Position numbers and translations under genes: made by a program
Notes under the pieces: model-generated
Databases searched by the model: none
What the model was told of the DNA's origin: nothing
Seen by the model: only the letters and a program-made list of their open reading frames with translations
Assembly: GCA_029866325.1 (NCBI GenBank)
Contig: JARWZO010000027.1
Location: 186,001-250,000, forward strand
DNA: 64,000 nt
Source of the DNA: Fluviicola sp.
GTDB lineage: Bacteria > Bacteroidota > Bacteroidia > Flavobacteriales_D > Crocinitomicaceae
Reading direction: 5' to 3'
Shown: one piece after another, positions 52,005 to 55,346 of the stretch
How the letters are laid out: each line of letters opens with the position of its first letter
Numbering within the stretch: the stretch's first letter is position 1

Positions 52005-52373
52005 GAAGGATTTTTGATGCTTGATTTTTGATGACTCACAGGTGGGAAACACGATTTAGGTCATTTTAATTGAAAATTGAAAATGTAAAATTGAAAAGGG
52101 GGGGGGCGCCAGGAAGAAATTATCAATTGGATAATGATCAATTATCAAGAAGTTGCCGGTTGAAAAAATTAGTTTAGCTAAATTAATCAAGTTTGTTTTC
52201 CTGAATCTACTTTTCAATTCTTCTAAAAAGGTTTCCAAAGTTGAGCTTCTGGATAAAATCTTATCAAAAATCAAGCATCAAAAATCCAACATCATCTAGT
52301 CATCTAACCAAGGTTTCCAAGATTGAGTTTTTAGGTAAAATCTCATCAAAAATCCAACATCAAAAATCAAGCA
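52005..52373. repeat. Repeat-rich intergenic region with inverted arms
   Basis: A perfect 25-bp sequence built from GGATTTTTGATGC and TTGATTTTTGAT (52008-52032) recurs inverted at 52263-52287. An imperfect direct repeat, AAGGTTTCCAA ... TCATCAAAAATCC, occurs at 52229-52287 and 52311-52356. Copy B of the copy A repeat lies inverted at 52040-52100. A nine-G tract is at 52098-52106. No gene is seen. Confidence 0.75.
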
Positions 52374-54269
52374 TTAATCGTTATAGATTCTCACCTGCTT
52401 AATATACAACTCTCTAGTCACGGCGCTGAATTTAAACTCCAAATCCAAACCAAAAGTATCATACTCTTCGTTGATTTTTGGCGTGTGTGCGTGTTTCCAG
52501 TAATAGCGTTTGATGCGCTCCAATTCCGATTGTAAAAGTTCTAGTTCGGTGTCAGAAAGCACCAGTTTCCCTTCGTTGAGATTGGATGTAGTAATGACCT
52601 CCGTTGTGCGTTTAAACGCTGATAATTCATTGGCAGGGTAAAGCACCAATTGATCGCAGATGATTCCTGCCGGAGGTGTCACCACACTTACATCGCCTTT
52701 TTGCACATTGATGATGAACCCGGCATAACTCTCGCGGTAAATGTTTTTGGTAATCGCGACACCATTGGCCGCTTCATCCGGAAAGGAACGATGCACCAAC
52801 ACACCCATGGCAACATCTTCGTCGGCAATCCCGAAATAAGTGCGTTCAATGTAGGCTTCATACGACCACAAACTTGCCCAAACGGTTTGTAAACCCTCTG
52901 AAATGGTTTTGTTGCAATCGTCTAGATCAACGGTTTTGGAAGCATACAAACCGGCTCCTGAAAAACCGGCAGCGTCTTCTGCATTGGTCGACGAGCGGAA
53001 ACGAAACGTGCGGAAACCCGAATCATCCAAACGGTTTTCCAACTGATGCAGCAAAGCCGTGTCGATTTTGGTTTTTGTGAAACACTTGCGAATGGCTTTG
53101 AGCTGCAACTGCAACGAATCGGGGTCGAGTGGGGGATGTGCGATCAATTTCCGGATCAATTCATCTGCTCCCGAACGCTTTGCGTGCTCTTCGTACCAAT
53201 AAAACGGTATGGCAAATCCTGCTTCGGGAACCTTGTAATTTCCGGATTGACTAACCGTGTAAAGCAACCCGAAATTCGCGGCTTTATTCCCGACTGTTTC
53301 TGCCAGTTTCGGTTCTAAATCGGCCGCAGCTATCAGCGATTTGGTTTCGAGATCTTTTTTCAGGTGAACCTTTTTTACATTGGTCGTTCCCAATGAAACT
53401 TCGGCCTTTTTAATGTAAAACGTATCTGACAAAATCGTGAGTTCCACCCATTGTTGATCGAGCGTACGTAAAAGTGAATCATTGTATAATCTCGTATAAA
53501 CTCCAATAGGAATGTGGCGGTTTTTGGCTAAGATGACCAAGTGACTCAAAGGCGTTTGAAAAGCCGTGAGCATCAAACCACGAACCGTTGGTAAATATTC
53601 AGGTGTAGCTTTGGTAAACACAATATCGGTTGCCAGAAGAGGCGTTTTTAAAGAATCGAAGTTTGGTTCAAAACGCAAACGTCCTTTCACTTTTCCTTCG
53701 CTGATTGCCTGATAATCGATAGCTGCATAAATATCACTTGGCGTGGCGGTTTTGATGTGTTTGTCGAGTTCGGGCTTCAGGGCTATTAGCCGCTCGGTAT
53801 TGAGTAAAAACACCAATTGTTCGCTGAAATAAGCGTTTGCTTTTACTGCTTCAAACAATTGAATGATCCGATTGGCAGGCATTTGGTCAAATACAGAAAG
53901 ATCGAGGTAATACATACCACTGGCTTCATTGCAATTGATGTTGGCTAACAGGTAATCGCGTTTTGAAGCTGCGTTGTAGTTCTCTTCGTTGAACACATAT
54001 AAATCGTACGGATAAAACAGTTGCTGTGTCGCAAAATCGTAGTGATAGCGGAAGTTTTTCGAACTGATAAAGTAGAGTTTCTCTTTTTTGGTATCAATGA
54101 TCAGTTTAATCGACGCAATGTTGCCGTACTTGGAAGAAAGCGGTTGACCTGCCAGTTGCAGGAATTGTTTCTTATCCGTAAGCGAAGTCAACGAACGCTG
54201 CGACCAAAGGATCACAACCGAAGAACAACAAATAAAAGTCAACAAAAATAAACGCAATCTCATAGTCAT
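52374..54269 (-). CDS. Exported protein with phosphohistidine and ATP-grasp (glucan water dikinase/PEP synthase-like) domains
   Basis: The 631-aa protein has a signal peptide (MRLRLFLLTFICCSSVVILWSQ, from the ATG at 54269 or 54263). Residues about 205-260 form a phosphohistidine domain with TPLSHLVILAKNRHIPIG (His243). Residues about 320-631 form the dikinase ATP-grasp domain: GNKAANFGLL (Lys329), RSSTNAEDAAGFSGAGLY (Arg424), VWASLWSYEAY, AMGVLVH and a closing YIKQVRIYND. The order phosphohistidine then ATP-grasp is that of glucan water dikinase, and the reverse of PEP synthase and PPDK. Export of an ATP-using dikinase is odd because ATP is absent outside the cytoplasm. The catalytic residues look intact, but activity and acceptor are unknown. 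Confidence 0.85.
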   Translation of the reverse strand: MTMRLRLFLLTFICCSSVVILWSQRSLTSLTDKKQFLQLAGQPLSSKYGNIASIKLIIDTKKEKLYFISSKNFRYHYDFATQQLFYPYDLYVFNEENYNAASKRDYLLANINCNEASGMYYLDLSVFDQMPANRIIQLFEAVKANAYFSEQLVFLLNTERLIALKPELDKHIKTATPSDIYAAIDYQAISEGKVKGRLRFEPNFDSLKTPLLATDIVFTKATPEYLPTVRGLMLTAFQTPLSHLVILAKNRHIPIGVYTRLYNDSLLRTLDQQWVELTILSDTFYIKKAEVSLGTTNVKKVHLKKDLETKSLIAAADLEPKLAETVGNKAANFGLLYTVSQSGNYKVPEAGFAIPFYWYEEHAKRSGADELIRKLIAHPPLDPDSLQLQLKAIRKCFTKTKIDTALLHQLENRLDDSGFRTFRFRSSTNAEDAAGFSGAGLYASKTVDLDDCNKTISEGLQTVWASLWSYEAYIERTYFGIADEDVAMGVLVHRSFPDEAANGVAITKNIYRESYAGFIINVQKGDVSVVTPPAGIICDQLVLYPANELSAFKRTTEVITTSNLNEGKLVLSDTELELLQSELERIKRYYWKHAHTPKINEEYDTFGLDLEFKFSAVTRELYIKQVRIYND

Positions 54270-54411: not shown

Positions 54412-54888
54412 ATGAAACTACCAACTAAGATTCCTGTTTGGCGTACATTCCTCAATTGGATTATCGCCGTATTAATCGGAAGTTTTATTTGGCCCTTGCT
54501 GGCATCAATGTTTAAAGGTGGTCCGGATGATCTCGAAGAAGCAGGTGCGCTAATGCTTATTTCTGTGATGATAAGCGGAATGACCTCTTTGCCAACCATT
54601 CTCTTAATGACACTTGCCAACTGGATTCTCAATAAACGGGAACTAGAGCGAAAAGCGTACCAACTCATTCATCTGGCCATTCACTTGTTTTTGGCGATGC
54701 TAACATTCTTTGTATTGTATGTTTTTGCAGATCATTTATCAGGAACGGAAACCTTTCAGTTTTTGTTAATTGCGTTTTCGTATACCTTAGCCGGAATCTG
54801 TACATGGGCTGTGACCTTTGCCATTTATCGCCGGAAAGCACTGGCACCATCTCCGTATTCAAGTGAAATTTTGGATGAAATCGTTTAA
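54412..54888 (+). CDS. Four-helix membrane protein, first of a tandem pair
   Basis: The 158-aa protein has four hydrophobic segments (about 14-35, 44-66, 83-105, 115-137). It shares with its neighbour TLLNWIIAVLIGSF, SLPTILLMTLANWILNKRELERKAYQLIHL and CTWAVTFAIYRRK. The pair begins and ends with the same pattern, so they arose by tandem duplication. Function unknown. A TATATTCG, one base off the -7 consensus, lies upstream. Confidence 0.7.
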   Translation: MKLPTKIPVWRTFLNWIIAVLIGSFIWPLLASMFKGGPDDLEEAGALMLISVMISGMTSLPTILLMTLANWILNKRELERKAYQLIHLAIHLFLAMLTFFVLYVFADHLSGTETFQFLLIAFSYTLAGICTWAVTFAIYRRKALAPSPYSSEILDEIV

Positions 54889-54914: not shown

Positions 54915-55346
54915 ATGAGTGATAGACTCTTCATCCCCATCCGGATTACTATCCTTAATTGGTTCATCACTGTTTTGGTGGGTAGTTTTGTCTATTCAAT
55001 CTTAAATAATTATTTCACGAAAAGCGGCGAAAATCTGTATCAAATAGTTCGGTTTTCTGGGCTTACAGCAACGTTTAGCGGACTCTATTCCTTACCTGCT
55101 TTGGTTGGAATGATAGTAGTGAATTGGTTCCTTAATAAACGGCAATTATTACCTCGCAGGTATCAGGTAATTCATACCATTGTGCAGCTATTGGTAGTGA
55201 TTCCGTCCTTTTTATTGCTTGTTTTGGGCAACAATAAAGTAACCTATGTCGATTTGATTTATTTGCTGCCGCTGTTTGTTACCTTTAACTGTGTTTCGCT
55301 AATTGTGTGGGCCATAACGTTTTCCATTTACAGATCGAAGGATTGA
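54915..55346 (+). CDS. Four-helix membrane protein, second of a tandem pair
   Basis: The 143-aa paralogue of the preceding gene has the same four-segment layout and shared stretches (ITILNWFITVLVGSF, SLPALVGMIVVNWFLNKRQLLPRRYQVIHT, IVWAITFSIYRSKD). It starts 26 bases after the first gene's stop, so both share a transcript. Function unknown. Confidence 0.7.
   Translation: MSDRLFIPIRITILNWFITVLVGSFVYSILNNYFTKSGENLYQIVRFSGLTATFSGLYSLPALVGMIVVNWFLNKRQLLPRRYQVIHTIVQLLVVIPSFLLLVLGNNKVTYVDLIYLLPLFVTFNCVSLIVWAITFSIYRSKD

Follow-up and report, generated by a model that had tools for sequence, protein, structure and literature searches.

Several described systems resemble parts of the protein reported here. 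In the glucan water dikinase (GWD) of plants, an N-terminal domain is followed by a His domain and a C-terminal ATP-grasp, and the enzyme is much longer than our protein. Rifampin phosphotransferase (RPH) and the phenol dikinases HpeHI, CreHI and PpsAB are cytoplasmic, and to our knowledge ATP-driven enzymes are unexpected outside the Gram-negative inner membrane. The CotH fold is protein-kinase-like. In the account of RPH, Lys22, Arg117, Thr136 and Glu297 contact ATP phosphates or magnesium, activity is lost in Lys22Ala and kept in Glu297Ala, and the catalytic His sits C-terminally (PMC4844700). The phenol dikinases are described as two-chain small-molecule kinases whose acceptor domain is related to that of RPH (PMC12167813), and VadK as another PPDK-derived kinase (PMC13400623). 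In Gram-positive pel loci, the genes for CotH, a polyphosphate polymerase and DUF4956 were reported to lie together as one contiguous set (PMC7112168). NTT nucleotide transporters of intracellular parasites import ATP, and NTT-HEAT fusions of unknown function exist in free-living bacteria; Bacteroidetes are within the NTT sample of that account, which, in the part cited here, links the fusions to cNBD and not to a dikinase (PMC5381601). No description of an exported dikinase was found in searches of the open-access PMC literature, in agreement with the original prediction, made from the sequence, which knew of no such described system.

The window, i.e. the whole stretch of 64,000 nucleotides of Fluviicola sp. 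DNA that was analysed, carries on its minus strand a gene for a predicted exported dikinase-type protein of 631 aa (52374..54269; open reading frame, strand and coordinates exact). The frame starts with the ATG at 54269, and comparison with the orthologue L002 showed that the ATG at 54263, two codons on, is the likelier start. Gene calls throughout were simple ORF lists, so starts are approximate. Residues 1-24 (54198..54269, minus strand, as are all features of this gene) form a signal-peptide-like leader by hydropathy, with a WSQ end. The next segment is an N-terminal domain with no recognisable relative, presumed to be the acceptor domain (residues 25-190; 53700..54197). It is followed by a presumed swivel-type phosphohistidine domain (residues 191-295; 53385..53699), in which His243 of the motif QTPLSH (codon 53541..53543) is the presumed phosphate carrier, as judged from a 92-row residue tally. 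Residues 310-631 (52377..53342) make up a PPDK/PEPS-type ATP-grasp, identified by Pfam, PDB profile alignment, Foldseek and the same tally, and containing Lys329, Arg425, Ser444, Asp609, Glu611, Gln625 and Arg627. In the intergenic segment after the gene (52008-52374) there is a direct repeat of 65 bp with 83% identity, and ATCAAAAATC-like words make up a perfect inverted repeat of 25 nt. Divergent from the dikinase gene are two similar small membrane-protein-like ORFs (54412-54888 and 54915-55346). The former has weak DUF4271 similarity (E = 3.7e-4, under the cut-off) and the latter has none; the order of the dikinase and these two ORFs is retained in genome G011 (L133).

PPDK_N (PF01326) was the sole Pfam domain, at residues 324-627 (E = 2.2e-18; 67.1 bits against a gathering cut-off of 27). 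At E <= 1, Pfam gave no call for the phosphohistidine domain, and no match to a PEP/pyruvate barrel, a glucan-binding or starch-binding domain, the GWD His-domain model or CotH (PF08757). The type IX C-terminal sorting domain, Por_Secre_tail, was also absent from the window protein in the Pfam scan. NCBIfam models for PEP synthase, RPH and prodigiosin ligase matched the ATP-grasp part, far under their cut-offs. Membership of PEP synthase/PPDK was rejected by the equivalog scores (58 bits against 598, and 46.2 against 739.75), and so was membership of RPH (40.8 bits against a cut-off of 999). A role in anti-phage defence was rejected as well, with 0 PADLOC families matching at E <= 0.01.

The arrangement had been predicted to be like that of GWD. 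The domain order, a His domain followed by a C-terminal ATP-grasp, is indeed common to both, but the glucan-binding domain is missing according to Pfam; membership of GWD was rejected because the order alone agrees and neither a GWD His nor a starch-binding model matched. Compared with GWD, the window protein is prokaryotic, predicted to be exported and without a starch-binding domain. The model GWD1_pHisD was touched weakly by one relative of 980 aa (L122; E = 0.012, below the cut-off). The ATP-grasp fold, its contact residues and a swivel phosphohistidine domain are shared with RPH (5hv1/5hv2), in which, however, the His does not precede the ATP-grasp as His243 does. PEP synthase (PEPS) and PPDK have the ATP-grasp and a TSH-type His motif in common with our protein, which differs from them in having no PEP/pyruvate barrel, another domain order and a predicted export signal. 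The ATP-grasp of HpeI also resembles that of the window protein, and the phenol dikinases share the swivel His.

We modelled the protein with AlphaFold2 using 66 sequences (mean pLDDT 92.2, pTM 0.89). When searched against the PDB with Foldseek, its ATP-grasp had RPH 5hv2 (E = 3e-16), PEPS 2ols, HpeI 9goj and PPDK 1kbl as top matches. The predicted fold thus matches solved dikinase ATP-grasps, PPDK included. The N-terminal domain modelled alone (residues 25-192) reached a pLDDT of 91.3 and had 0 PDB matches in Foldseek at E <= 0.001. As this domain has no fold match, we do not propose an acceptor.

The window protein is a member of an uncharacterised Bacteroidota protein family, which occurs in several families of the phylum but has a patchy distribution. 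Three subfamilies were distinguished, of about 630, 830 and 980 aa (hereafter short, long and 980-aa forms), and the catalytic residues are kept in all of them. The window protein is the single match in its own genome. A protein search of 59 related genomes gave matches in 19. Some of the matches were ordinary PEP-synthase-like proteins, and the rest were either short, at about 630 aa, or long, at about 830 aa or more. A scan of GTDB contigs with the window protein alone gave no match; with a 15-row alignment, at least 559 relatives were confirmed by tblastn, and the best 80 of these were retained. By record titles, these best 80 were mostly from Flavobacteriales, and also from Chitinophagaceae, Lentimicrobiaceae, Marinifilaceae, Paludibacteraceae and Cytophagales. 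Of 395 genomes that sample the phylum evenly, 13 matched the short-form profile at E <= 1e-30 (eight short, six of them from one genus, one long and four 980-aa forms), and 12 matched the 980-aa-form profile. These genome searches scored few candidates per genome (two or three with the short, 980-aa and NTT profiles), so misses are possible. Alignment A1 comprised the window protein and 14 of 23 loci. It omitted L001, which is the window itself, L006 and L020, which are two pieces of a single gene, as well as L012, L015, L023 and the PEP-synthase-like L017-L019. Alignment A2 comprised 65 of the 80 loci, after exclusion of 15 near-duplicates or disrupted genes, and A5 comprised 44 of these loci. 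The gene appears disrupted by broken or split frames in L033, L081 and L006/L020, which may be assembly errors. DxDGDG calcium-loop-like stretches were read by eye in the long subfamily (L010-L016, L021 and L022).

The residue tally was made over 92 aligned rows (66 short, 7 further short, 7 long and 12 of the 980-aa form), which came from two collections and count at least two genes twice (L004/L027 and L005/L026). His243, Lys329, Arg425, Ser426, Asp609, Glu611, Gln625 and Arg627 were invariant in 92/92 rows. Position 444 was Ser in every short and long row and Thr in 12/12 980-aa rows. In the N-terminal domain, Asn110, Asn112 and Gln187 never varied within the short subfamily, and His76 was constant both there and in the 980-aa rows. 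With a profile of 66 sequences, the ATP-grasp aligned with solved PEP synthases and RPH, and a weak alignment (conditional E = 8.5e-4) paired the region of His243 with the TSH stretch in PEP synthase 8a8e. In the former alignment, read by eye, Lys22, Arg117, Thr136 and Glu297 of RPH correspond to Lys329, Arg425, Ser444 and Glu611 here, with Thr in place of Ser444 in the 980-aa form. The intact motifs and the order of His before ATP-grasp that the original prediction had named are supported. Of its two ATP-grasp residues, Lys329 was right, but the arginine is residue 425, residue 424 being Phe. Against the 90%-identical orthologue L002 (G011), dN/dS was 0.045 for the mature part and 0.025 for the ATP-grasp; synonymous sites are close to saturated (dS = 1.26). 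The leader diverges faster than the mature part (64% against 91% identity).

The N-terminus, MTMRLRLFLLTFICCSSVVILWSQ, has a basic start and then a hydrophobic core, with an 11-aa Kyte-Doolittle maximum of 2.43. A hydrophobic core in the first 40 residues (mean 1.9 or more) was found in 76 of 77 short relatives, after removal of L033 and L081, whose frames are disrupted, and of L048, which lacks an N-terminus. It was also found in 318 of 687 (46%) other ORFs at the same loci, so this test is weak alone. A simple lipobox pattern was present in 12 of the 77. The long relative L016 ends in a type IX sorting domain (E = 6.7e-12); none was detected in L014, the other long form scanned, which runs to the locus end. 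The predicted leader, the relatives' lipobox patterns and the type IX tail of L016 agree with the export that had been predicted. Forms with a signal peptide, with a lipoprotein signal and with a type IX domain occur side by side in this family, which argues that the catalytic part works beyond the inner membrane.

The neighborhood of the short form was surveyed in the best 80 loci. A DUF4956 membrane-protein gene adjoined it in 41 and stood 9.3 kb off in one more; within the flanks examined, some of them on short contigs, it was absent in 38. One locus with the adjacency is L090, from Flavobacterium johnsoniae strain CI04. PF16316 matched the four adjacent copies scanned with E = 2.5e-45, 6.7e-45, 2.9e-18 and 1.2e-20. 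The gene was directly upstream on the same strand in five loci (Tenacibaculum and uncultured Flavobacteriaceae), and directly downstream and convergent in 36 (Flavobacterium, Chryseobacterium, Epilithonimonas and Edaphocola). The convergent arrangement accounts for 36 of the 41 adjacencies and comes mostly from Flavobacterium and Chryseobacterium, so common descent explains part of the count. A midpoint-rooted FastTree tree of 52 DUF4956 proteins, excluding the partial L062, placed the upstream and downstream sets in separate clades (supports 0.96 and 0.94), and the upstream set grouped with VTC-linked copies. From these two clades, it seems probable that dikinase and DUF4956 became associated on two occasions or that the association outlasted a replacement. 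In the sample of 395 genomes, which overlaps the 80 loci (at least G075, G258 and G278 duplicate L092, L071 and L072), DUF4956 was adjacent in seven of eight short-form carriers, six of the seven being from one genus. The exception was the window's genome: it has a single DUF4956 gene, which lies on a different contig next to the gene of a VTC-type polyphosphate polymerase. Four relatives from the window's order (L133-L136) had no DUF4956 nearby. The window's own clade has neither DUF4956 nor NTT adjacency.

Among the 59 related genomes, DUF4956 was found in 50, VTC in 48 and CotH in 54, and the VTC match was accompanied by a DUF4956 match within 291 bp in 48/48 cases. In L024 (by Pfam scan) and L136 (by similarity), the gene divergent from the dikinase encodes a CotH protein that also has a lamin-tail and a type IX sorting domain. 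The pel gene set likewise has DUF4956 beside an extracytoplasmic phosphotransferase gene (PMC7112168), whereas the phosphotransferase here is an ATP-grasp/phosphohistidine dikinase. In eight loci of the long subfamily (L126-L132 and L137), local models detected no DUF4956, CotH or NTT, mostly within 6-10 kb of flank and within less at contig ends.

The 980-aa form has a different neighbor. A match to the NTT profile was present in all 12 genomes with this form and in 38 of the 395 overall (hypergeometric 1e-13, kinship ignored). The profile (A4) was built from neighbors of the 980-aa form, and three of the four discovery genomes (G159, G120, G174 and G118) supplied it; without these four, NTT was found in 8/8 against 34/391 (1e-9, kinship again ignored). 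The NTT gene lies one gene from the 980-aa form in nine of the 12 genomes, and in five of eight without the discovery genomes, a gene for a beta-lactamase-fold protein standing between them. It lies elsewhere in G234, G239 and G255; the match in G239 is a short NTT without the HEAT-length extension, and the adjacent NTT of G118 is a fragment at a contig end. Among four scanned NTT neighbors, the TLC ATP/ADP transporter model was above the Pfam cut-off in three (L122, L154 and L157, not L123) and HEAT repeats were found in all four. TLC plus HEAT is also the make-up of the published fusions (PMC5381601). An exported-looking beta-lactamase-fold protein adjoins the 980-aa dikinase in 11/12 (by similarity or a YPIDGY start; Pfam-checked in three). 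In L122-L124 and L153-L157 we observed a four-gene module of the 980-aa dikinase, a YPIDGY-type beta-lactamase-fold protein, the NTT-HEAT transporter and a second beta-lactamase-fold-like protein (Pfam-checked in L154); the module is cut by the contig end in L125. The NTT profile had no match in the window's genome at E <= 1e-20. A PF03219 search of that genome also gave no match, a negative that carries no information, as no control matched in that search either.

A His_Phos_1-type phosphatase gene adjoins the dikinase gene in six of 96 loci and lies within 5.2 kb in three more. Two of these loci carry a long form and one a 980-aa form; the others carry short forms and come from Tenacibaculum and Olleya. 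In the six loci (L050, L056, L058, L074, L128 and L129), a predicted secreted phosphatase is directly beside the dikinase; the adjacent domain was Pfam-checked in L050, L128 and L129, E ranged from 2.5e-10 to 5.2e-16 in the four proteins scanned, and leaders were read by eye. Among the eight long loci, only L128 and L129 have such neighbors. A histidine phosphatase would fit as an off-switch of the phosphohistidine, and its occurrence is sparse.

Stated most safely, the window protein is, judging from its sequence, a dikinase-superfamily protein whose active site is complete and which is predicted to be exported. It files as a superfamily variant that would work extracytoplasmically, new as such in a known superfamily. 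From the gene, its domains, intact sites, export signals and linkage, which were observed, we infer catalysis, donor, direction of transport and acceptor. The reading to which we lean, with a little more belief than doubt, is an exported dikinase-type phosphotransferase that acts outside the inner membrane on a donor handed across by a membrane protein. The place of action would be the periplasm, the outer membrane or the cell surface. The C-terminal ATP-grasp would bind ATP or a related phosphoanhydride and pass the phosphoryl group to His243; the small swivel domain would then bring it to an acceptor, which the N-terminal domain would hold. The donor might cross the inner membrane through the NTT in the 980-aa subfamily and through DUF4956 in much of the short subfamily. 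The linkage to DUF4956 and NTT thus suggests a possible donor route, which lay beyond the sight of the original prediction. That membrane proteins feed the donor is the bolder statement; linkage supports it in two of the three subfamilies and not in the window's clade.

The donor might instead be polyphosphate, another phosphoanhydride or a phospho-compound from a VTC/DUF4956 system, used by an exported His-phosphotransferase that does not take ATP; a donor other than ATP was among the options of the original prediction. The close pairing of DUF4956 with VTC in the relatives, the reported gene set with CotH and the polyphosphate polymerase, and the failure to detect an NTT in the window's genome are all consistent with this. 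However, the residues with which the ATP-grasp would contact ATP never vary, no VTC-like gene was seen by eye in four layouts with adjacent DUF4956 (L042, L050, L059 and L092), and the 980-aa form accompanies an ATP/ADP-type transporter; we regard such a donor as less likely. It is also conceivable that the exported enzyme takes up whatever ATP strays outside the cell, or that it works backwards there, forming ATP or recovering phosphate from a phosphorylated compound, with the linked genes being unrelated. Dikinase reactions are reversible, and the window's clade has no linked transporter. HpeH alone is reported to transfer phosphate between two phenols (PMC12167813). Against this, the linkage recurs, in two DUF4956 lineages and with NTT, and we hold this reading to be quite improbable.

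The remaining explanations deny either export or catalysis. If the N-terminal segment were an uncleaved anchor, the protein could be an ordinary dikinase with its catalytic part in the cytoplasm, an option that the original prediction had left standing. Hydropathy cannot show cleavage by itself, and nearly half of the other ORFs pass the same criterion. Still, by the positive-inside rule, basic residues before the helix predict that the C-terminus is outside, and the lipobox patterns of the relatives and the type IX tail of a long form speak against a cytoplasmic catalytic part; we give little credence to an anchor. A pseudo-enzyme whose ATP site is structural or regulatory would suit an N-terminal domain that matches no solved fold. 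But because His243 and seven ATP-site residues never vary, position 444 accepts only Ser or Thr and the ATP-grasp is under strong purifying selection, the structural role once suggested for this site is very improbable indeed.

Returning to the exported phosphotransferase with a donor handed across the membrane, a wider scheme can be offered, tentatively and with more doubt than belief. Bacteroidota would carry out dikinase chemistry outside the cytoplasm, with NTT-HEAT proteins supplying ATP and taking AMP/ADP back for the 980-aa form, DUF4956 supplying ATP or polyphosphate for the short form and for CotH, and exported histidine phosphatases serving as the off-switch. If true, this would give a function to DUF4956 and to the NTT-HEAT proteins of free-living bacteria. 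What is new here is that gene neighborhoods offer candidate answers to the puzzle of ATP outside the cytoplasm. With a full dikinase active site and, in many genomes, linkage to ATP/ADP-type transporters and to the CotH/polyphosphate-associated DUF4956, this family brings two questions within reach of experiment: by what means bacteria drive reactions beyond the cytoplasm, and which cargo the uncharacterised NTT-HEAT and DUF4956 proteins move.
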